From Acidobacteriota bacterium (GTDB taxonomy: Bacteria > Acidobacteriota > Blastocatellia > RBC074), in NCBI GenBank assembly GCA_016196035.1, contig JACPYM010000041.1:1-37440 (forward strand): a stretch of DNA of 37,440 nucleotides, read 5' to 3'. The notes beneath the pieces are model-generated. The model had not been told where the DNA came from, ran no database searches, and saw nothing but the letters and a program-made list of their open reading frames with translations. Below are positions 20,672 through 32,274 of the stretch, piece after piece. Position 1 is the first letter of the stretch. Every line of letters starts with the position of its first letter. A program made the position numbers and the translations under genes.

Positions 20672-20682
20672 TTGAACGCGTT

Positions 20683-20713
20683 GGAGTGGGCAACGGCAGC
20701 GGTTGCCCACTCC
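20683..20713 (+). terminator. Terminator hairpin after TIGR03437 protein
   Basis: GGAGTGGGCAAC (20683-20694) pairs perfectly with GTTGCCCACTCC (20702-20713) over a 7-nt loop, 12 bp past the stop. It directly abuts the 144-bp inverted-repeat element. Confidence 0.7.
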
Positions 20714-20857
20714 CGCGGCTTTGCACAAAAACCTCTAAAAATGACGGACTTTTTGTGCAGGTTGAAAAAAAGCGGCGATAAGTCATTTGGATTTGCGCGC
20801 GCTTCTACGCAATCACTCGACTTTTTGTGCAAACGGGACTTTTTGTGCAAAGCCGCG
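20714..20857. mobile_element. 144-bp inverted-repeat element at the kinase truncation point
   Basis: Perfect 18-bp ends: CGCGGCTTTGCACAAAAA (20714-20731) and its reverse complement (20840-20857). CTTTTTGTGCA also occurs at 20749-20759 and 20821-20831, so the element is internally repetitive. Kinase homology begins at its right edge. The element has no transposase and may be a MITE or a deletion scar. Confidence 0.65.
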
Positions 20858-22690
20858 CTGCGCAAAGAACCGGAGCGGCGTTATCAATCGGTCGAACAGT
20901 TTTCTGACGATCTGCGGCGTTATCTGGAGGGCTTGCCGGTGCAGGCTCGCCCCGACACCTTTACGTATCGCACGGGCAAATTCGTGCAGCGGCATCGCGT
21001 GGGTGTGGCGGCGGTGGCGCTGGTGTTGCTCAGCCTGTTGGGCGGCATCCTGGCGACGGCCTATGCGGCGCGCCGGGCACAGGCCGAACGCGCGCGCGCC
21101 GAATACCGTTTCGCCCAGGTGCGCGCGTTGGCGAATAAATTTCTCTTCGATTTTCACGACAAGATTCAGAACGTACCCGGCACCACCGAAGCGCGCGGAC
21201 TGGTCGCCAAAACGGCGCTGGAATATCTGGATAACCTGGCGCAAGAAATGACGGGAGACCCGCAGCTTGCGTGGGAACTGGCGGTGGCCTATCAAAAAGT
21301 CGGCGATGTGCAGGGCGATCCCTGGGCCGCCAATCTGGGCCATTCGCAAGAAGCCATGCAGAGTTATCAAAAGGGCCTCAAGCTGGCGCAACAACTCAAC
21401 CGCAATGGCAACCCTGAGCTGAAAATGACGCGCTTGCTGGCGCAGGGATATTTCAAACTCGGCATTTTGCAAGCGCAGTCCGGGGGCATGGCGGCGGCGC
21501 ACGAGACGTTGCAGCAGGCCCTTGCCACCGCTGAAAAACTGGCCGGGCAAACTGCCGCGCTGGAAGACATCCGCCTCTTGCAAAATTGCCACACTCGTTT
21601 GGGTGACACCTATCTGGACACGGGTGATCCGGTCAGCGCACTCGACAGTTATCGCCGGGAAATACGGTTGTCCGAGCGCCGCCTCACGGCGTTTCCGACT
21701 GATGGCTCGCGCTTGACCTTGGCGATGAGTCATTCCCGTGTGGCCGAGCCGCTGGTGACGCTCGGAGACTTACCGGGCGCGCTGGCCGGTTATCGCAAAT
21801 CGGTGGAATTGGTGGACGAATTACTGCCCGCGCACGTGGCTGATCCGATCTATCTGCGGGTGCGCATGATCGGCCTGATCTGGCTCGGCAATCTTTCCGG
21901 CAATCCGCGCTTTATCAATTTGGGTGAGCCACAGACGGCGCTGCAACATTACCGCGCGGCTTTGGCGATTGCCGAACAATTGGCCGCGCTCGATCCCAAA
22001 GATGCGTTCGCGCGCCGCGATTTGGCGGGCGGCCATCGGCTGGTGGGAGAAATTCTGACGCTCAATCAGCCTGCGCAAGCCGTCGAACAATTCCGGCAGG
22101 CGCTCGGCATCATGCGCGAAATGCTGGCGGTCACACCCCAAGACGCGCAACTGTTGCGCCGCGAAGCGCAATACCTCAAAGGTTTGGCGGATGCCTTGCG
22201 CCGTCTGGGCGACCGGCCCGGCGCGTTGCAAAACCTGCGGCAGGCGCGCCAAACCTGGCAGGACTTGCTGGCGCGCGACGCCGCCAACCTGAAAACACGC
22301 GCTGAATTGCATGCGGCGTTGCTGGCGCTGGCGGATACAACGCTGGAAGCTGGCGATCACGACAGCGCGTTGGCCCATTACCGCGCGGCGCTCACCCTGG
22401 CCGAAACGCCGCCTGTCGAACAATGGCTGATCTCTATGTGCGTTGGCGGCTAGCCGATTCTTACGCCGGGCTGAGCCGCTATCACGCCGCGCGCGCCACC
22501 GCCGCGCCAGTCGGCGAACGGCTCAACCATTGGCGCGAAGCCCGTCAATACGCGCAACGTTCGCTCAGCCTTTGGGAAGAATGGGGCCGACATGCAACCT
22601 CCACCAGTTTCGATCAACGGCAGCGTGAACAGGCCGCGCGCGCCGTGGCGAAATGCGAGGCCGCCTTAGCCAAACTGGACGCGAGAGCGC
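20855..22690 (+). pseudogene. Truncated Ser/Thr kinase-TPR gene lacking the catalytic domain
   Basis: From ALRKEPERRYQSVEQFSDDL onward this is a close paralogue of the kinase at 8461, starting at about residue 347 of that protein. It has the last kinase helix, a transmembrane helix (VAAVALVLLSLLGGIL), FLFDFHDKIQ and the TPR array. The Gly loop, HRD and DFG are all absent. The frame is open back to a TTG at 20672, but that covers a terminator and a mobile element and has no ribosome-binding site. Near 22415 the frame shifts: the first frame ends at 22453 (WLISMCVGG), while the TPR tail continues from about 22423 as ADLYVRWRLADSYAGLSRYH, open to 22947. One A missing from CAAATGG explains it. 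It is probably non-functional; no ECF gene accompanies it. Confidence 0.8.
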
Positions 22691-22947: not shown

Positions 22948-23321
22948 CGGCAGTGACGAAATTTTCTTCTGAAAAAAATCTTGTGCGTGACTAGCAGTTT
23001 CGCGTGCGGCTTTCGCATGTGACGGCGAGCAACCAAGACGTTGTTCAGAACCACAGCGCAGGCACGTCCGGTGCGCCGGAGGTGTGCTTACGCAACCGTA
23101 AGAGTTCAGTACCAATGAGGAGAAAATTCATGAAACATCGCTTAAGTAGGCAGCAAAATATTCCTGGACAACCACGAAGCAACGAAAAGCGCGAAGAAGA
23201 ACAGGAAGGAGAAGATAGGAGGCCGATCAACATTGATGTTTTCTTCTCTTTCTTCTCTTTCTTCGTGCTCTTCGTTGCTTCGTGGTGAATAGTTTTTGTC
23301 AAAGGACTTTTTGCAGATCAC
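22948..23321. other. Intergenic region with interrupted short ORF and inverted repeat
   Basis: No full gene is supported. GAGGAG (23117-23122) precedes an ATG at 23130 that opens a 52-codon frame to 23288. From about 23171 that frame is made of the two arms of an inverted repeat, so it is probably a gene start cut by repeat insertion. 22948-23115 shows nothing recognisable. Confidence 0.4.
23171..23286. repeat. 116-bp inverted repeat of CACGAAG type
   Basis: ACCACGAAGCAACGAA (23171-23186) and its exact complement (23271-23286) flank purine-rich (GAAGAAGAACAGGAAGGAG) and pyrimidine-rich halves that can also pair partly. The motif CACGAAG / CTTCGTG recurs in both arms. Confidence 0.75.
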
Positions 23322-23502
23322 TTAGATCGGTTTTCATCTCGGTATATGGGAAAAGTTGCGCAGCGGGACGGTACCGCGCGCGTGAGCAAGCGGAGCCTGG
23401 GCGGTTTAGCCAACGGCGTAATCTTGACGCACCGCTTGCTCACGCGCGCGGTGCCGTCCCGGCCCAACGCGCTCCCGTAAACGCAATTGCAAACCGGTCT
23501 AA
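23322..23502. mobile_element. MITE-like repeat, copy 2 (181 bp)
   Basis: Same architecture as the copy at 17406: TTAGATCGGTTTTCA at the left end, CAATTGCAAACCGGTCTAA at the right, and inner arms GGGACGGTACCGCGCGCGT / GCGCGCGGTGCCGTCCC. The central loop differs completely from copy 1. It ends 35 bp before the methyltransferase start, so it forms most of that gene's upstream region. Confidence 0.75.
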
Positions 23503-23536: not shown

Positions 23537-24382
23537 ATGAATGCAGCAACCACGACCGTAACCGAATTGGCAAATTTGAAGGCCAAGCTGAAAGCCACCT
23601 GGATGGCGGGTGATTTCGACAAAATCGCGGAAATCATTTGGGCCGGCGGCGCACAATTTATCACGCGCCTGCAATTGAAACCCGGCGCACGCCTGCTCGA
23701 CATCGCCTGTGGTACAGGCAATCTCGCGTTCCCGGCGGCGCGTGCTGGCGCGTTGGTGACTGGCGTAGACATCGCGCCGAACTTATTGGAAACAGCACGC
23801 GCACGGGCCAAAGACGCAGGCGTGCAAATTCAATTTGACGAAGGCGACGCTGAAAACCTGCCTTATGCCGACGCCGCGTTTGACGAAGTTGTGACCATGT
23901 TCGGCGCGATGTTCGCTCCGCAACCCAATCTGATTGCGGTGGAACTGGCGCGCGTCTGCCGTCCCGGCGGGCGCTTGGCGATGGCGAATTGGACGCCCGC
24001 GGGGTTCATCGGCCAGATGTTCAAAGTCACCGGCCAACACGTGCCGCCGCCGCCAATGCCCTCGCCGCTTTTGTGGGGCGATGAAGCGACGGTGCGTGCA
24101 CGCTTGCAAGGCGATTTTGTCAAGCTGCAATGCCGGCGGCGCGACTTGGTGATGGCGTTTCCCATGACACCAACGGCGGCGGTGGAATTCTTCCGTACCT
24201 GGTACGGCCCCACGCAGCGGGCATTTGCGGCGCTGGATCAAGCTGGTCAAGCCGCGTTACGCCGCGACCTGGAGCAACTTTGGACGGCGCACAACCGCGC
24301 CACCGACGGCACGACGCAAATCGTCGCCGAATATCTGGAAGTCATTGGCACGCGCGCCAATGTCGGCATGCATCAGCAGTGA
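23537..24382 (+). CDS. Class I SAM-dependent methyltransferase
   Basis: A 281-residue methyltransferase of the Methyltransf_11/UbiE-like type. SAM-binding motif I is LLDIACGTGN (53-62), the acidic residue after strand 2 is D78 in TGVDIAP, and DAENLPY (104-110) is the usual motif next to the adenine site. ARVCRPGGRLAMANW (about 136-150) is motif III. The C-terminal half has MAFPMTPTAAVEFFRTWYGP, which may form the substrate lid. AAGGAG at 23523-23528 sets the start at 23537; the frame is open further upstream only through the MITE. The diiron oxygenase gene begins 69 bp downstream in the same direction, so the two are probably co-transcribed and may modify the same small molecule (inference). 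The substrate is unknown. Confidence 0.88.
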   Translation: MNAATTTVTELANLKAKLKATWMAGDFDKIAEIIWAGGAQFITRLQLKPGARLLDIACGTGNLAFPAARAGALVTGVDIAPNLLETARARAKDAGVQIQFDEGDAENLPYADAAFDEVVTMFGAMFAPQPNLIAVELARVCRPGGRLAMANWTPAGFIGQMFKVTGQHVPPPPMPSPLLWGDEATVRARLQGDFVKLQCRRRDLVMAFPMTPTAAVEFFRTWYGPTQRAFAALDQAGQAALRRDLEQLWTAHNRATDGTTQIVAEYLEVIGTRANVGMHQQ

Positions 24383-24451
24383 TGCCACGTTCAACGCACA
24401 TCAACCACAACCATCTTTATCCGAATTTTATTCAAAAGCAGGAGCTTACAA

Positions 24452-25393
24452 ATGATGATCGCAACACAAACACAAACCGCGACGAAACCAACTTACAGTT
24501 ATCAAGACACGCTGGCCGCCTCGCAAAAGGTGAACTGGCGCATCGAAGACATCATCGGCGGCGACAAGCGGATTAGTTTCACCCAGCCGCTGATGTCGGA
24601 ATCGTTCGCGCGCGTCGAGGAACTCAGCTTCCTGACGCCCGCCGAAAAGCTGACGCTCAATCAGATTCGCGGCTTCGATTACCTCTGCGCCTTTGGGCTG
24701 GTCGAAGAGTCCATTCTGCCCTTCGTGCTCGATCACGCGCGGCCGCACTTGCAAGGCGACGATTACCGCACCCGCGCCTTTCTGCAATTCGCCGCCGAAG
24801 AGGCCAAACACATTCACCTCTTCAAGAAATTCCGCGCCGAGTTTGAAGCCGGGTTTGGGTCGGAATGTCTGTTCATCGGCCCGCCGGAGGAAGTCGCCCA
24901 GGCGATTCTCGCGCACGATCCGCTGGCCGTGGCGCTGACCATCCTGCACATCGAATGGATGTCGCAGCGGCACTACACCGAAAGCATTCGGGACAACCAG
25001 CAACTCGACCCGCAGTTCAAGAGCCTGCTCAAGCATCACTGGATGGAAGAAGCGCAACACGCCAAGCTCGACACGCTGATGGTCGAAGCGCTGGCCGAAG
25101 GGCGCAGCGAGGCCGAACTGAACAAAGCCTTTGATGAATACCTGGAAATCGGCGGCTTCCTCGATGCGGGGCAGCGCCAGCAGGCCGAATTCAATTTGGA
25201 AAACCTGCAACGCAGCACGGGCCGCACGCTGAACGCGGACGAACGCGCCGAGTTTCTGACCAAACAACATCGGGCGTTGCGCTGGACGTTCTTGGGTTCG
25301 GGCATGACGCACCCGAACTTCCTCGCTACGCTCGAACGGCTGTCGCCAAAGTTGCGCCAGCGCGTCGAAGAGGTCGCGCCGGTCTTCTGCTAG
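24452..25393 (+). CDS. AurF-like diiron oxygenase
   Basis: A 313-residue ferritin-like helical protein. Candidate iron ligands: E86 (or E85) in LVEES, E117 and H120 in EEAKH, E168 in HIEWM, H196 in KHHWM, and E200 and H203 in EEAQH. The H-x3-E-x2-H spacing of the last three equals that of AurF, the p-aminobenzoate N-oxygenase, whose extra histidine separates it from ribonucleotide reductase R2 and most ferritin-like diiron enzymes. AGGAG at 24440-24444 lies 7 bp before the ATG. Family chemistry is O2-dependent oxidation, in AurF of an arylamine to a nitro group. The substrate here is not visible. An R2-like or other ferritin-like role remains possible. A strong hairpin terminator follows at 25408. 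Confidence 0.7.
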   Translation: MMIATQTQTATKPTYSYQDTLAASQKVNWRIEDIIGGDKRISFTQPLMSESFARVEELSFLTPAEKLTLNQIRGFDYLCAFGLVEESILPFVLDHARPHLQGDDYRTRAFLQFAAEEAKHIHLFKKFRAEFEAGFGSECLFIGPPEEVAQAILAHDPLAVALTILHIEWMSQRHYTESIRDNQQLDPQFKSLLKHHWMEEAQHAKLDTLMVEALAEGRSEAELNKAFDEYLEIGGFLDAGQRQQAEFNLENLQRSTGRTLNADERAEFLTKQHRALRWTFLGSGMTHPNFLATLERLSPKLRQRVEEVAPVFC

Positions 25394-25407: not shown

Positions 25408-25444
25408 GAGTTGTCAGGTCGGTTCCCAGCCGATCTGACAACTC
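25408..25444 (+). terminator. Terminator hairpin after diiron oxygenase
   Basis: GAGTTGTCAGGTCGG (25408-25422) pairs with CCGATCTGACAACTC (25430-25444) with one G-T wobble over a 7-nt loop, 15 bp after the stop. No long T-run follows. Confidence 0.65.
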
Positions 25445-25731: not shown

Positions 25732-28700
25732 ATGACCAACATCACGACACCGCCGGGCCGGGGCTGGCGGTTGAATAGCCGTTCCCGTTCCCGTTCCACT
25801 CAGGTGCTGGCGCTGGCTGTAACGCTGCTCGCGCTGGCCGCCGGCAGCGCAAGCTGGCGCGCGCTGGCCGGACGCCAACCCGCCAGGGCCGCACAAGGCC
25901 GTGCGGCGGCGCTGCTCAATCTTCAGCTTCAACCCGTCGCCACAGGGTTGAACATTCCGGTCTATGCGACACACGCCCACGACAGCCGTTTATTTATCGT
26001 CGACAAAGCGGGGCGCATTTTTCTTTATCAAAACGGCCAGCTTGCCGCCACGCCGTTTCTCGATCTGGCGGCGCGCGTGATGTCGGTCAGCCGGTTTGAT
26101 GCGCGCGGCTTGCTGGGGCTGGCGTTTCATCCGCAATATCCGGCGGTGCCGTATTTTTTCGTTTACTTCACGGCGAACGGCACACCCCTCGTTGACGGCG
26201 GCGCGCCTGCCGTCAACGACAACGTGCTGATGCGCTATGCGGTTTCATCCGCCAACCCGAATCTGGCCGACGCCAATTCTGGCAAGACCATGCTGATTAC
26301 GCCGCAAACTTCGTTTAACCATAACGGCGGCACACTTGATTTCGGCAACGATGGTTTTTTGTACCTCTCCAAAGGCGACGGCGGCGCGGCCAACGATCCG
26401 GAAGGCAACGCGCAGAACATCAACAACCTGCTCGGCAAGATTTTGCGGATTGACGTGGATCAAAACGTCAATGCCGCGCCGTATTACGCGATTCCCCCGT
26501 CGAATCCTTTCGCCGGGGCGACGCCGGGCGCGGACGAGATTTACCTGCTCGGCTTGCGCAATCCGTACCGCTTTGCGTTTGACCGCGTGACGGGCGATTT
26601 GTGGATTGGCGATAACGGCGAAAGCGCGCGCGAAGAAGCCGACCGCGTGCCGATCAACGCCGCGACCGGCGGCGACAATCTCGGCTGGCGCGTGCTCGAA
26701 GGCGCGCTCTGCACGAACCTCGATCCTTGTGTCACACCCGCGAGCTACGTTGCGCCGGCGCTCGAATACAGCCACACGGGCGGGCGCTGTGCGATCATCG
26801 GCGGCTTTGTTTACCGGGGCAGCCAGCTTCCGGCGTTGCAGGGAAAATATGTCTATGCCGATTACTGCACCGGCGAAATTTTCAGCTTGCAGGGCACGAC
26901 GCAGACGGTCGAACTCGACACGCCGTACAACATCACGGGCTTCGGCGCAGATCAAAACGGTGAACTTTACGTCGTGAATGACGCGGGCAGTCTCTTCAAA
27001 ATCCAGGCGCAGGCGACAGCCAGCCTGACGCGCGGCCCTTATTTGCAACTGGGCACGCCCACCAGTTTGCGCCTGCGTTGGCGCACCGACACGGCCACCG
27101 ACAGCCGCGTGCGTTATGGCGCGGCGCCCAACGCGCTCAACTTGCTGATGGATGATGCCGCTGTGACAACCGAACACTCCGTCACGCTGACAGGGCTGAC
27201 GCCGAATACAACGTATTACTATTCCGTCGGCACGACGGCGGCGACGTTAGCGGGCGGCGATGCCAATCATGTGTTCGTGACCGCGCCGACGGTGGGCAGC
27301 ACTCAGCCGGTGCGCGTGTGGGTGCTGGGTGACGCAGGTTGGGCGGGCGTGGGCTTGCCCGAAGGCCAGCGCGCCGTGCGCGATGCTTACTATGCTTTCA
27401 ACGGCACGCAGCGCACCGATCTGTGGTTGATGCTGGGCGACAATGCCTACAACACCGGCACCGACACGGAATATCAAGCCGGGGTGTTCGATATGTATCA
27501 AGCGATGCTGCGCCAGTCCGTGCTCTGGCCGGCCATTGGCAATCACGACACCGCCGGTTCGACCACGCCGCCGCCGACACTGCCGTACTTTCAGATTTTC
27601 GATTTGCCGCAGCAGGCCGAAGCGGGCGGCGTGGCGTCGGGCACAGAACTTTATTACTCGTACAATTACGGCAACATTCATTTCGTCAGCCTGGACGCGA
27701 TGGTTTCGCCGCGCACGCCGCCCAGCGCGATGTTGACGTGGCTGCAAAATGATCTAGCGCAAAACCACCAGGATTGGTTGATCGCGTATTGGCATCATCC
27801 GCCGTATAGCAAAGGCTCACACGATTCGGACACCGAAGCCAATCTGGTCGAAATGCGCGCGAACGTACTGCCGATTTTGGAAAGCTACGGCGTGGATTTG
27901 GTGCTGAGCGGCCACAGCCACGCTTACGAACGGTCGTTTTTGATTGATGGGCATTACGGGCTGTCAACGACGTTCACCAACGCGATGAAAAAGAACGGCG
28001 GCGACGGGCGGCCCGGCGGCAACGGCGCTTACACCAAATCCACGCGCGGCCCCAGCGCGCACGAAGGCGCGGTCTATGTCGTGGCGGGCACGTCGGGCAT
28101 CACCAGCGGCGGGTCGCTCAATCATCCGGCGATGTTCACCTCGCTCAATCAACTCGGCTCGCTGGTGTTGGACATCAGCGGCAATCAGCTCGACGCCAAA
28201 TTCCTGCGCGAGACGGGCGCAGTGGATGACAGTTTCACGATTAGCAAAGGCACGGGCGTGATTCCGCCGCCTACCATCACGGCGCAACCCGCCGATCAAT
28301 CCGCCTGTCCGGACGGCAACGTCAATTTCAGCGCCGCCGCCAGCGGCAATCCCGTGCCCACCGTGCAATGGCAAGTCAGCACCGACGGCGGCGCGAATTT
28401 CAGCAACCTGCCCGGCGCGAACAGCATCACGCTGGCGTTGACGGGCCTCACCACGGGGCTGAACGGCCAACGTTACCGCGCCGTATTCACCAACTCCGGC
28501 GGCACGGCGACGACCAACGTGGCGTTGCTGACGGTCTATTCCGCCACCGGCATCGCCGCGCAACCAGTCGCACAAACTGTTTGCAACGGCGCGGCGGCGG
28601 CGTTCGCGGTGACGGCCAGCGGCACGGGGCCGTTTACCTATCAATGGCGCAAAAACAACACGAACTTGCCGGGCGCGACGGGGGGCAGTTACGCCCTCGC

Positions 28701-31700
28701 GGCGGCCACCGCAGGCGACGTGGGGGTGTATGACGTGGTGGTCAACGGCCTGTGCGGCAGCGTGATTTCGCAGGCTGCCACGTTGACCGTCAACAGCGCG
28801 CCGGGCATCAGCGTGCAACCGGCGGCGCAAACCGTCTGCGCAGGCGCGCCCGTTTCGTTTTCAGTTAGCGCCAACGGGACAGGGCCGCTGACCTATCAAT
28901 GGCGTAAGAACAATCTCAACCTGCCCGGGGCCACCGGCAGCAGTTATCAAATCGTCGCCGCCAGTACGAATGAGGTCGGCGCGTATGATGTGCTCGTCAC
29001 CGGCGCTTGCGGTAGTGTGATCTCACAGGCCGCCACGCTGACGGTGAATAGCGCGCCCAGTGTCAGCGTGCAGCCCGTAGCCCAGTCCGTCTGTCCAAAC
29101 GGTAGTGCCACATTCACAGCCACAGCGAACGGCAGCCCTACACCTGCGGTGCAGTGGCAAGTCAGCAATGACGGCGGCGCGCATTTCGCCGATGTCGCGG
29201 GCGCGCAAGGCACGACGCTGAGCTTGAACAACGTAAGCGCCGGGCAAAGCGGTACGTTGTATCGCGCCGTTTTTACCAACACCTGTGGCACGACGGCCAG
29301 CGTGGCGGCGGCGTTGACGGTGCATAGCTTTGTGTTAACACCGCCCGCGCAAAATTTTGCGGCCAGCGGCGGCACTGGCGCGGTCACGGTAATCGCCACA
29401 GGAGCATGTCCCTGGTTGGCCACCAGCAATGCGCCCTGGCTGATCATCACGACGGGAGCGACGGGCAACGGTTCGGGCGCGGTCAGTTACAGCGTGGGCG
29501 CGAATACCAGCCCCGCGCGCACGGGCACACTGAGCATCGCCGGGCAAAACTTCACGGTGACGCAGGCGGACGGTTGTGTCTTTGCCATCAACCCCGCCGC
29601 CGCGAGCTTTGCGGTGGGCGGAGGCAGCGGCACGGTCAATGTCACGGCGGGTGTGGGTTGCGTGTGGACGGCGGTGAGCAATGCGCCTTGGCTAACGCTC
29701 AGCAGTGGCGGCAGCGGCAACGGCGCGGGCGCGGTGAATTACATCGTCGCCGCCAATCAGGGCGCGGCGCGCACGGGCACGCTGAGCATCGCCGAGCAAA
29801 CGTTGACGGTCACGCAGGCGCTCAATTGTGCGACGCAACCGATCACGCTCAACCCCGCGACGCTGCCCGCCGGCGTGACCGGTGCGAGCTATAGCCAAGC
29901 GTTGTTGGCCAGCGGTGGCCCGGCTCCTTACAGTTTCGCTTTGCTGGCGGGCGCGTTGCCTGTGGGCTTGAGTTTGGCGGCGGATGGCATGCTGAGCGGC
30001 ATGCCCGGCACAGCGGGAACGTTTAACTTCACGGTCAGCGCCACGGCTGCCACAAGTTGCGTGGGCACGCAGGCTTATACGTTGAATATCGCGTGCCCCG
30101 CGATCACGCTCAATCCGCCCACATTGCCCAGTGGCACGACGGGGACACCGTATCAACAAAGCTTCACGCAAAACGGTGGCATGGGAGCGATTACGTACAG
30201 CCTCAGCGCCGGTCAATTGCCCGCCGGGATGACCCTTACTCCCAACGGTGCACTCGGCGGTGTGCCGACGCAGGCAACCAGCGCAGTCTTTACCGTGAAA
30301 GCGACCGATGCGAACGGCTGCCTGGGGACGCGCGCCTACACGCTCTCAATCAATTGCCCGATGATCACCGTCAGTCCGGCGACTTTAGCAGCAGGCAGTG
30401 TGGGTACGCCGTATCAGCAGAGCTTCACGCAAACCGGCAGTGGCGCGATCATCTTCGCCTGGCAAGGCGCGCCGGTGCCGGGCCTGACGTTTACGCCGGG
30501 TACGGGATTGCTGACGGGCACGCCGACGCAAAGCGGCAGCTTCAGCTTTAACCTGACGGCCACGGATGCGAATGGTTGCGCGGGCCAGCAAAGTTACACG
30601 CTGACGATCAATTGCCCGGCTCTCAACATCGCGCCGGTCAATTTGCCGGGCGCTACGACAAGCACGGCGTATAGCCAGCAGTTGACCGCGACGGGCGGCA
30701 CTGCGCCGTATGGTTTCAGTTTGCTCAACGGCGCGTTGCCAGCGGGGCTGACGCTTTCAACGGCGGGCTTGCTCAGTGGTTCGCCCACGGCGGCAGGCAC
30801 GGCTAGTTTTACCGTCAAAGCTAATGACGCGAATGGTTGCGCGGCGTCGCAGCCGTTCACGCTGGCCGTCACGTGCGCGACACTCAGCTTGACGCCGCTT
30901 GTGCTGCCCAGCGGACAAACCGGCGCGCCCTACAATCAGACGCTTACTGCGACGGGCGGGAGTGCACCATACGCCTTCAGCATCATTTCAGGCGCATTGC
31001 CTGCCGGGTTGGCGCTTTCGAGTGCGGGCATCTTGGGCGGAACGCCCACCGTCAGCGGCAACGCGACCTTTGTCGTTAGGGCGGTAGATGCGAATGGCTG
31101 TGCGGTCGAGCGGCCATACCAACTCAGTCTCAATTGCCCGGCGGTTTCGCTGAATCCGGCGACGCTGCCAGGCGCTGTGCAGTGGACGGCGTATCAACAA
31201 ACCTTGTCCGCCACGGGCGGGACTGCGCCATACAGTTACAGCTTGGTGAGCGGCGCATTGCCAACGGGGCTGAGCCTGGCAAACGAAGTTGTGACGGGCA
31301 CGCCCGCTATTCCTGGCAGCTATAACTTCACGCTCAAAGCAACCGATGCGCATGGCTGTGCGGGCATTCGCGCTTACGTTTTGACGGTACAGGCCAAAGC
31401 GAAGAAGGTTGATTTTGACGGCGATGGCAAAACGGATTTTGCCGTTTGGAACGGCCCGACAGGGAATTGGGCGGTGCTCAACAGCGGCAACAGCGCGCTG
31501 CAAACGACGCAATGGGGCGCGGGCTATGCGCCATACAACGATGTGATCGTGCCGGGCGATTACGACGGCGATGGCAAGATTGATCACGCCATCTGGCGCG
31601 GCGCGGATTCGCTCTGGTACATCCGCAAATCCTCCGATAGCCAAGCGGTGTTGCAATTGTGGGGCGCGAACTATGCGCCGTATTTCGATATTCCGACGCC

Positions 31701-32274
31701 GGGCGATTTCGATGGTGATGGCAAGACTGATCTCGCGGTTTGGCGGCCATCGAACGGTACTTGGTACGTCAAGCGCAGCTCCGACGGCAGCTATCTGATC
31801 GAAGTCTGGGGCCAGCCAGGCGATACGCCCGTGGCGGCGGATTACGATGGCGATGGCAAAACGGACTTTGCGGTCTGGCGTCCGGCGGATGGCAATTGGC
31901 TGCTCAAGCTGAGCGCGGGCGGCACGCAAACCATTCAATGGGGCGCGGGCTATGCGCCGTATCTCGATGTGCCCGTGCCCGCCGATTACGATGGCGATGG
32001 CAAGGCGGACTTAGCAATCTGGCGCGGCGCGGATTCGCTCTGGTACATCCGCAAATCCACAGATGGCCAAGCGGTGTTGCAATTGTGGGGCGCGAACTAT
32101 GCGCCGTATTTTGATATTCCGACACCGGGCGATTATGACGGCGACGGCAAGGCGGACATTGCAGTGTGGCGGCCTACGTCGGGGACGTGGTTTGTGCGGC
32201 AAAGTTCGGACGGCGCGAACCTGATTCGGCAGCACGGGCAGCCGGGCGATACGCCAGTGCCGAAGGTCCAATAA
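25732..32274 (+). CDS. Exported fusion: PQQ-type sugar dehydrogenase, purple acid phosphatase-like, Ig/BACON, VCBS
   Basis: A 2180-residue exported protein. A long basic N-terminus leads to a hydrophobic signal segment (about 23-42). Residues about 63-425 form a glucose/sorbosone-dehydrogenase-like propeller (LLGLAFHPQY, FNHNGGTLDFGNDGFLYLSK, LGLRNPYRFAFD). 434-520 is a fibronectin-like purple acid phosphatase N-domain. 527-840 is a metallophosphoesterase with ligands D534, D570, Y573, N604 (GNHD), H689, H728 and H730 (GHSHAYER), all present. Then come Ig-like domains (845-1200), two BACON domains (1200-1363), six putative-Ig domains (1367-1888) and six VCBS blades with DYDGDGKxD loops (1889-2180). 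It may oxidise sugars and release phosphate outside the cell; each module's activity is inferred from motifs. The start has only AAAGAAAG as a possible ribosome-binding site. Confidence 0.9.
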   Translation: MTNITTPPGRGWRLNSRSRSRSTQVLALAVTLLALAAGSASWRALAGRQPARAAQGRAAALLNLQLQPVATGLNIPVYATHAHDSRLFIVDKAGRIFLYQNGQLAATPFLDLAARVMSVSRFDARGLLGLAFHPQYPAVPYFFVYFTANGTPLVDGGAPAVNDNVLMRYAVSSANPNLADANSGKTMLITPQTSFNHNGGTLDFGNDGFLYLSKGDGGAANDPEGNAQNINNLLGKILRIDVDQNVNAAPYYAIPPSNPFAGATPGADEIYLLGLRNPYRFAFDRVTGDLWIGDNGESAREEADRVPINAATGGDNLGWRVLEGALCTNLDPCVTPASYVAPALEYSHTGGRCAIIGGFVYRGSQLPALQGKYVYADYCTGEIFSLQGTTQTVELDTPYNITGFGADQNGELYVVNDAGSLFKIQAQATASLTRGPYLQLGTPTSLRLRWRTDTATDSRVRYGAAPNALNLLMDDAAVTTEHSVTLTGLTPNTTYYYSVGTTAATLAGGDANHVFVTAPTVGSTQPVRVWVLGDAGWAGVGLPEGQRAVRDAYYAFNGTQRTDLWLMLGDNAYNTGTDTEYQAGVFDMYQAMLRQSVLWPAIGNHDTAGSTTPPPTLPYFQIFDLPQQAEAGGVASGTELYYSYNYGNIHFVSLDAMVSPRTPPSAMLTWLQNDLAQNHQDWLIAYWHHPPYSKGSHDSDTEANLVEMRANVLPILESYGVDLVLSGHSHAYERSFLIDGHYGLSTTFTNAMKKNGGDGRPGGNGAYTKSTRGPSAHEGAVYVVAGTSGITSGGSLNHPAMFTSLNQLGSLVLDISGNQLDAKFLRETGAVDDSFTISKGTGVIPPPTITAQPADQSACPDGNVNFSAAASGNPVPTVQWQVSTDGGANFSNLPGANSITLALTGLTTGLNGQRYRAVFTNSGGTATTNVALLTVYSATGIAAQPVAQTVCNGAAAAFAVTASGTGPFTYQWRKNNTNLPGATGGSYALAAATAGDVGVYDVVVNGLCGSVISQAATLTVNSAPGISVQPAAQTVCAGAPVSFSVSANGTGPLTYQWRKNNLNLPGATGSSYQIVAASTNEVGAYDVLVTGACGSVISQAATLTVNSAPSVSVQPVAQSVCPNGSATFTATANGSPTPAVQWQVSNDGGAHFADVAGAQGTTLSLNNVSAGQSGTLYRAVFTNTCGTTASVAAALTVHSFVLTPPAQNFAASGGTGAVTVIATGACPWLATSNAPWLIITTGATGNGSGAVSYSVGANTSPARTGTLSIAGQNFTVTQADGCVFAINPAAASFAVGGGSGTVNVTAGVGCVWTAVSNAPWLTLSSGGSGNGAGAVNYIVAANQGAARTGTLSIAEQTLTVTQALNCATQPITLNPATLPAGVTGASYSQALLASGGPAPYSFALLAGALPVGLSLAADGMLSGMPGTAGTFNFTVSATAATSCVGTQAYTLNIACPAITLNPPTLPSGTTGTPYQQSFTQNGGMGAITYSLSAGQLPAGMTLTPNGALGGVPTQATSAVFTVKATDANGCLGTRAYTLSINCPMITVSPATLAAGSVGTPYQQSFTQTGSGAIIFAWQGAPVPGLTFTPGTGLLTGTPTQSGSFSFNLTATDANGCAGQQSYTLTINCPALNIAPVNLPGATTSTAYSQQLTATGGTAPYGFSLLNGALPAGLTLSTAGLLSGSPTAAGTASFTVKANDANGCAASQPFTLAVTCATLSLTPLVLPSGQTGAPYNQTLTATGGSAPYAFSIISGALPAGLALSSAGILGGTPTVSGNATFVVRAVDANGCAVERPYQLSLNCPAVSLNPATLPGAVQWTAYQQTLSATGGTAPYSYSLVSGALPTGLSLANEVVTGTPAIPGSYNFTLKATDAHGCAGIRAYVLTVQAKAKKVDFDGDGKTDFAVWNGPTGNWAVLNSGNSALQTTQWGAGYAPYNDVIVPGDYDGDGKIDHAIWRGADSLWYIRKSSDSQAVLQLWGANYAPYFDIPTPGDFDGDGKTDLAVWRPSNGTWYVKRSSDGSYLIEVWGQPGDTPVAADYDGDGKTDFAVWRPADGNWLLKLSAGGTQTIQWGAGYAPYLDVPVPADYDGDGKADLAIWRGADSLWYIRKSTDGQAVLQLWGANYAPYFDIPTPGDYDGDGKADIAVWRPTSGTWFVRQSSDGANLIRQHGQPGDTPVPKVQ

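Follow-up and report, generated by a model that had tools for sequence, protein, structure and literature searches.

An AurF-like diiron protein and its changing gene partners in Acidobacteriota and other bacteria

AurF-like enzymes have been described in Dirammox and in pathways that make antibiotics or N-N bonds. A stretch of 37,440 nt from an Acidobacteriota genome (contig C41; hereafter the window) carries a gene for a protein of this kind directly after a class I SAM methyltransferase gene (MTase), and a first-pass annotation had read the two as a "two-step tailoring module" for nitro or N-hydroxy products. We asked whether the protein belongs with the AurF-type oxygenases, whether the pair is conserved, and what the genes around its relatives suggest about its function. 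The host genome is 9.59 Mb in size and 97% complete, and it contains a single copy of the diiron gene.

A new AurF-like diiron subfamily

Searches of Pfam with the window protein at E <= 1 returned only AurF (PF11583; 24.1 bits, E 2.4e-5) and Metal_hydrol (E 0.061, below cut-off; matched by 13 of the 23 homologues from a whole-protein search, set A1), and no R2 or ferritin profile. Each of the 23 A1 sequences hits PF11583 at E <= 0.01, the strongest at 8.8e-10, and three homologues of the subfamily lie above its curated cut-off (30.0-35.2 bits). The expectation that AurF, and not R2 or ferritin, would be the best profile match was borne out, but the window protein itself misses the cut-off of 29.6 bits; we therefore describe it as belonging to an AurF-like subfamily and not as a formal member of PF11583. 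A search of NCBIfam gave no match. Sequence comparison with the PDB found nothing believable (best E 0.18), and a search with the protein's profile returned a transcriptional regulator (E 0.0059) and an R2-type protein (E 0.18), neither of them believable.

Fold comparison was the only route to a believable match among solved structures. An AlphaFold2 model built from A1 (mean pLDDT 92.2, pTM 0.90) was aligned by VIA-align to CmlI and AurF at ranks 1-6 (Z 18.9-20.0), the best being CmlI at Z 20.0 over 266 residues and AurF at Z 19.6 over 273. The fold is common to these proteins and ours over nearly the whole chain, at 10-13% identity over the structural alignment, and the likeness to AurF and CmlI put forward in the first-pass annotation is upheld. 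Proteins of the R2 and R2lox type, which also form a ferritin-like diiron bundle, came next, at Z no higher than 15.8. Foldseek placed R2lox and R2 rows first by E-value (1e-4) and gave AurF the highest TM-score, 0.65, among the 50 matches listed. An R2 or R2lox identity was set aside on Z, on the profile result and on the extra helix-4 His, which R2 proteins are not known to have.

The metal site gives the same picture. AurF and CmlI have the seven-ligand layout E/ExxH/E/HxxxExxH found in the subfamily, and in the window protein all seven AurF-type positions are present and aligned: E85, E117-x2-H120, E168 and H196-x3-E200-x2-H203, counted from the ATG at 24452 (the analysed protein, P0001, begins one codon later, and its numbers are one lower). 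E117, H120, E168, H196, E200 and H203 had been named exactly by the first-pass annotation; the seventh ligand, E85 (E84 in P0001), was absent from it. The seven columns are identical in 23/23 sequences of A1 and in 90/90 of a wider set, where conservation is partly built in for L027-L106 through contig-scan patterns that included E84-E85 and E115-E116-H119; the A1 sequences, and residues E167, H195, E198, E199 and H202, are free of this bias (P0001 numbering). Alignment by hhalign with eight AurF-type oxygenases (set A4; probability 79.5, E 1.5e-5) brought the ligand columns into register, with P0001 E84, E116, H119, E167, H195, E199 and H202 paired with conserved acid or His columns in the printed alignment. 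Because the pattern is invariant in both sets and aligns with the conserved AurF-type ligand columns, it is not a product of chance. The aligned column would place H196 at the metal site, and we infer that three His and four Glu bind two irons. Profile, fold and ligand columns together show that the product of the second gene represents a new AurF-like diiron subfamily: the name AurF-like is justified by fold and ligands, though not by the Pfam cut-off. At the metal site the window protein would work like AurF and CmlI; N-oxygenation is a putative activity.

Further residues are invariant in 90/90 sequences, namely E115, H173, W196, E198, D206 and Q243 (P0001 numbering). Two of these, E115 and E198, replace by Glu the second-sphere acids D135 and D226 of AurF, as those residues are given in PMC12101540. 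The resulting EExxH/HxxEExxH signature is present in all ten plasmid relatives that we found (27-46% identity). It was dropped as a mark unique to the subfamily, since fetched AurF-type proteins (A4) also have Glu at one or other of the two places. Among named systems, the AurF homologue DnfA has ligands E88, E123, H126, E182, H209, E213 and H216, in the same order as here (PMC9478400); the helix-1 and helix-2 Glu are 32 residues apart in the window protein and 35 in DnfA. PMC9478400 also describes DnfA as a hydroxylamine oxidase of Dirammox that has the AurF-type ligand set, a case in which an AurF-like protein need not make a natural product; its partner genes are a reductase and an amidotransferase, whereas the flanks here are the MTase and a large repeat protein.

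Layout of the two-gene locus

Both open reading frames were confirmed at the coordinates of Table 1, and the MTase does lie upstream of the diiron gene on the same strand, as the first-pass annotation had stated. An AGGAG resembling a ribosome-binding site precedes each of the two starts by 7 bases. We looked for promoter-like and terminator-like sites in the gap between the reading frames and found none; the sole terminator-like site of the region falls inside the MTase gene, and this count is below that in shuffled sequences. The short gap, the common strand and the bounding inverted repeats lead us to infer that the MTase and diiron genes may form one short transcription unit. The downstream repeat is a candidate for its transcript end, a possible one; it has no T tract, and the terminator scan did not report it as terminator-like.

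Table 1. Coordinates of features around the diiron gene, in positions of the window
Feature	Positions	Strand	Description
TPR protein	20672-22453		593 aa
Palindromic intergenic stretch	23165-23292		45-nt arms; part of a dispersed repeat
Inverted repeat	23364-23461	none	33-nt arms, 94%, 32 nt between; ends 75 bases before the MTase start
Class I SAM methyltransferase (MTase)	23537-24382	+	281 aa; first gene of the putative unit; Methyltransf_11 match; coding span 23537-24379, then stop codon
Intergenic gap	24383-24451	+	69 bases; AGGAG at 24440-24444, 7 bases 5' of ATG 24452
AurF-like ferritin-fold diiron protein	24452-25393	+	313 aa; four-helix protein; ATG at 24452, stop ends at 25393
Inverted repeat	25408-25444	none	15-nt arms, 93%, 7-nt loop; begins 14 bases after the diiron stop
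Large repeat protein	25732-32274		2180 aa; GSDH, purple-acid-phosphatase-like and metallophosphatase domains; Ig/BACON/He_PIG and FG-GAP repeats

The dispersed repeat that includes the palindromic stretch has 46 matches genome-wide, with the two orientations of each copy counted separately. We take the N-terminal part of the TPR protein to resemble the tail of a Ser/Thr kinase; a domain search of this protein for a kinase domain found none. Kinase-like ORFs, judged from sequence, occur in 21/88 of the loci compared below, within each retrieved stretch.

Distribution and partners of the diiron family

At E <= 1e-5, 24 of the 98 genomes searched (the window's own included) carry the family, with full-length homologues at 57-83% identity. 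A scan of species genomes confirmed 153 relatives, and the best 80 of the 153 were kept; these come from Pseudomonadota (mostly Alphaproteobacteria), Acidobacteriota, Planctomycetota, Myxococcota and one Binatota bin. The nearest named contigs that bear a homologue are from Acidobacteriota, including Blastocatellia. Plasmid records contributed the ten further relatives mentioned above, which are annotated "hypothetical protein" in the three whose annotation includes the gene, and the phage records searched gave no match. Phyla are intermixed on a quick tree (15 changes for 5 groups), a count to be read with caution as many of its rows are metagenome bins. The diiron protein of L053, from a bin assigned to Candidatus Kuenenia, is almost identical to that of a sphingomonad row, and L053 is probably a mis-binned contig. 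In the open-access literature we found, among the matches listed, no paper that describes or names the diiron family or that links AurF-like proteins to OsmC.

We compared gene neighbourhoods in 88 loci, made up of the window, the best 80 of the 153 relatives and seven other genome stretches. Duplicates (13 stretches) were removed, the set does not include the G058 and G081 copies or a second, partial G003 copy, and several loci have short flanks. Within 2.6 kb of the diiron gene, OsmC was found in 33/88 loci (32 on the same strand), some MTase in 14 (all on the same strand), GNAT1 in 8, GNAT2 in 5 and DUF3455 in 6. At least one of OsmC, MTase and GNAT was present in 49 loci; the other 39, some of them through short flanks, had none of the three, so that no single partner is required. 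The diiron enzyme of about half of its relatives is located beside stress or detoxification genes, OsmC the commonest, rather than antibiotic-making genes, and these stress-type neighbours set the subfamily apart from AurF and CmlI.

Counts of ORFs near the diiron gene (within 2.6 kb; 356 kb) and far from it (2.6-9 kb; 767 kb) gave, on the same strand, near/far values of 32/0 for OsmC, 17/3 for MTase, 13/0 for GNAT, 6/2 for DUF3455 and 4/4 for ECF. On the opposite strand they were 15/1 for ECF sigma factors, 30/5 for AraC/BTAD/hydrolase-type regulators and 1/0 each for OsmC and GNAT; a regulator divergent from the diiron gene is thus a frequent companion of these partners. Because these counts treat related loci as independent, binomial values calculated from them overstate significance. 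Three MTase seeds gave the same 14 loci, and the Cyc, AraC and BTAD seeds overlap, so that the regulator classes are not cleanly separated. Pfam scans assigned 23 of 72 downstream adjacent ORFs to OsmC, 7 to MTase and 4 to GNAT, and of 74 upstream adjacent ORFs, 11 to alpha/beta-hydrolase, 8 to ECF sigma, 6 to Trans_reg_C, 6 to GNAT and 5 to AraC; these scans omitted 13/85 downstream and 12/86 upstream ORFs, the window's own among them, and the other omitted ORFs were picked by eye, chiefly as the longest. At L093:5875-7722 a Cupin_6 domain, an AraC HTH and an alpha/beta-hydrolase are joined in one upstream ORF that is divergent from the diiron gene, and in several other alphaproteobacterial loci the alpha/beta-hydrolase domain follows an unassigned N-terminal part. 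On the quick tree, which has many weak forks, the minimum numbers of changes were 17 for OsmC, 12 for MTase and 6 for GNAT, as expected if partners have been exchanged between loci.

The OsmC partner has a distinctive sequence: one invariant Cys, and a Ser-Pro later in the chain, each in 33/33 proteins. Its nearest solved relative, the hypothetical protein 2opl, has both features in the alignment. With one invariant Cys, and Ser-Pro in place of Cys-Pro, the partner may not be an ordinary two-Cys peroxidase. OsmC genes also adjoin the diiron gene in 3/10 of the distant plasmid relatives. Four proteins of the OsmC family are encoded in the window's own genome, all of them on other contigs, and a profile search of that genome found no good match to the one-Cys subfamily: three of the four scored weakly against the partner profile (25 bits or less) and the fourth was not reported. 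Two of these host copies, compared by eye, have Cys-Pro where the partner has Ser-Pro. An example of the one-Cys subfamily is L063:8815-9510, with 32 homologues.

The window's own partner, METHYLTRANSFERASE (MTase), matches Methyltransf_11 (1.3e-22) and Methyltransf_25 (4.8e-22), and has homologues in other related genomes at 49-78% identity; among solved MTases even the nearest (MitM and others) resemble it over the common SAM domain only. Six of the 24 carrier genomes (G000, G009, G031, G058, G061 and G064) have a gene of this MTase family no more than 2 kb from the diiron gene; the two genes share a strand in every case, with the MTase upstream in two genomes and downstream in the other four. 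Adjacency is kept in these six; in the other 18 carriers, the majority, the two genes are not neighbours. MTase homologues with 49% identity or more are present in 13/24 carriers versus 5/20 hand-picked non-carriers (one of the five a partial match), a co-occurrence per genome that is not significant (Fisher p 0.07). The MTase is a real, recurrent same-strand partner of the diiron gene, but a facultative one. Away from the diiron gene, the most frequent neighbour of the MTase family is DUF3455, in 7/14 stretches examined (five of the seven confirmed by Pfam, two by clustering only), which suggests that the MTase may have its own job. The MTase homologue and DUF3455 stand side by side on one strand in L174, L175, L179, L180 and L183, and this pairing recurs.

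Readings of the function

We favour, at a little short of an even chance, the reading that the protein is a diiron oxygenase that activates O2 and belongs to a regulated stress or detoxification module with a variable second enzyme. Its two irons, bound through three His and four Glu, would activate O2 to a peroxo-diferric species, and the enzyme would oxidise a small nitrogen- or carbon-containing molecule within a regulated stress or detoxification response. The neighbour enzyme (the MTase in the window, OsmC or GNAT at other loci) would make the reactive product, or the same toxicant, harmless by capping it, reducing it or other means. All three of these partner families are common, so the term "detoxification" is read from the gene context. 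Against it stand the 39/88 loci that have none of the partner types, the window's genome with no good match to the one-Cys OsmC, the preference of the MTase for DUF3455 elsewhere, the non-significant co-occurrence of MTase and diiron gene per genome, and NRPS-type genes near the diiron gene in L102 and on the Nostoc plasmid. A bolder version, possible but doubtful, is that this widespread AurF-like branch left natural-product chemistry to become the oxidising step of a general stress module with dedicated regulators and an exchangeable second enzyme (one-Cys OsmC, MTase or acetyltransferase), in which the one-Cys OsmC would be the principal partner, acting on the oxygenase product and not as an ordinary peroxidase.

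The first-pass view, in which the MTase and a diiron N-oxygenase decorate one amine-bearing metabolite, draws on the AurF/CmlI fold and ligand set and on the company kept by true AurF-type relatives: an Azospirillum plasmid copy has a SAM methyltransferase on one side and an NRPS gene on the other, and two Streptomyces copies adjoin carrier-protein genes. Of our subfamily's relatives, the Nostoc plasmid copy has an NRPS-type gene with an adenylation domain at a distance of about 3 kb, on the opposite strand and separated from it by two transposases, and a single NRPS seed gave strong matches in 1/88 loci (L102). Length and score make single acyl ligases the probable source of the weak matches in L081 and L105. 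No ketosynthase match was found in the 88 loci. A search of the whole 97% complete genome at E <= 1e-10 found a single ketosynthase, of FabF size, and no condensation domain of the NRPS type; a scaffold-forming enzyme of the PKS or NRPS types looked for was found neither nearby nor in the genome. With OsmC, MTase or GNAT and regulators as the dominant neighbours, the tailoring module is not supported, and we consider this explanation quite unlikely. That the two genes of the window are neighbours by a coincidence of gene order, functionally unlinked, is less likely still. The 18 carriers that keep them apart would agree with it, as would the nearest diiron homologue (L028, 83%), which has no such MTase in its fetched stretch, and the more frequent pairing of the MTase with DUF3455; the constant strand in the six carriers, and in all 14 loci that have some MTase within 2.6 kb, and the 17 near against 3 far ORFs argue against it.

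If the site were rubrerythrin-like, it might reduce organic or inorganic peroxides while OsmC, MTase or GNAT handled damaged lipids or thiols, and nothing would be oxygenated. The commonest neighbour, OsmC, fits this idea, and the Rubrerythrin profile is touched weakly by 2/23 A1 members (E 0.0055 at best). The one-Cys, Ser-Pro character of the partner OsmC argues the other way, as does the ligand set, for PMC12101540 describes three His with four carboxylates as a set that, within the ferritin-like diiron oxygenases, is largely confined to N-oxygenases; we regard peroxide handling as unlikely. C-H oxidation or halogenation, as in the dimetal halogenases CylC and NocO, is improbable. PMC12101540 gives these enzymes an AurF-like fold, the three-His and Glu layout and an HxxxExxH motif of HxxDExxH type, and the closest plasmid relative (45.5% identity) is from Nostoc, a cyanobacterium like the halogenase hosts. 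Their signature, however, is a Gln before the helix-2 Glu (QExxH), at the first second-sphere acid place (AurF D135; PMC12101540), and this residue is Glu (EExxH) in 90/90 sequences of our subfamily. A halogenase identity was set aside on this difference.

The closest 80 scanned of the 153 relatives, spread over several phyla, keep 57-83% identity; in this branch the metal site never varies, and the association with OsmC and regulators recurs. Such conservation and context suggest a general physiological reaction that lacks a name. Some carriers of the gene are in culture (Sphingomonas sp. ID1715, Dongia mobilis, Azospirillum canadense and a more distant Novosphingobium), so its deletion can be tested directly. 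OsmC adjoins the diiron homologue in Sphingomonas sp. ID1715 and in Novosphingobium pentaromativorans US6-1. The window's genome also encodes a second, distinct AurF-profile protein (L133, G000:C34:11629-12285), which at 53 bits is over the cut-off; it is about 22% identical to the window protein and has motifs of the EExxH and HxxDExxH types.
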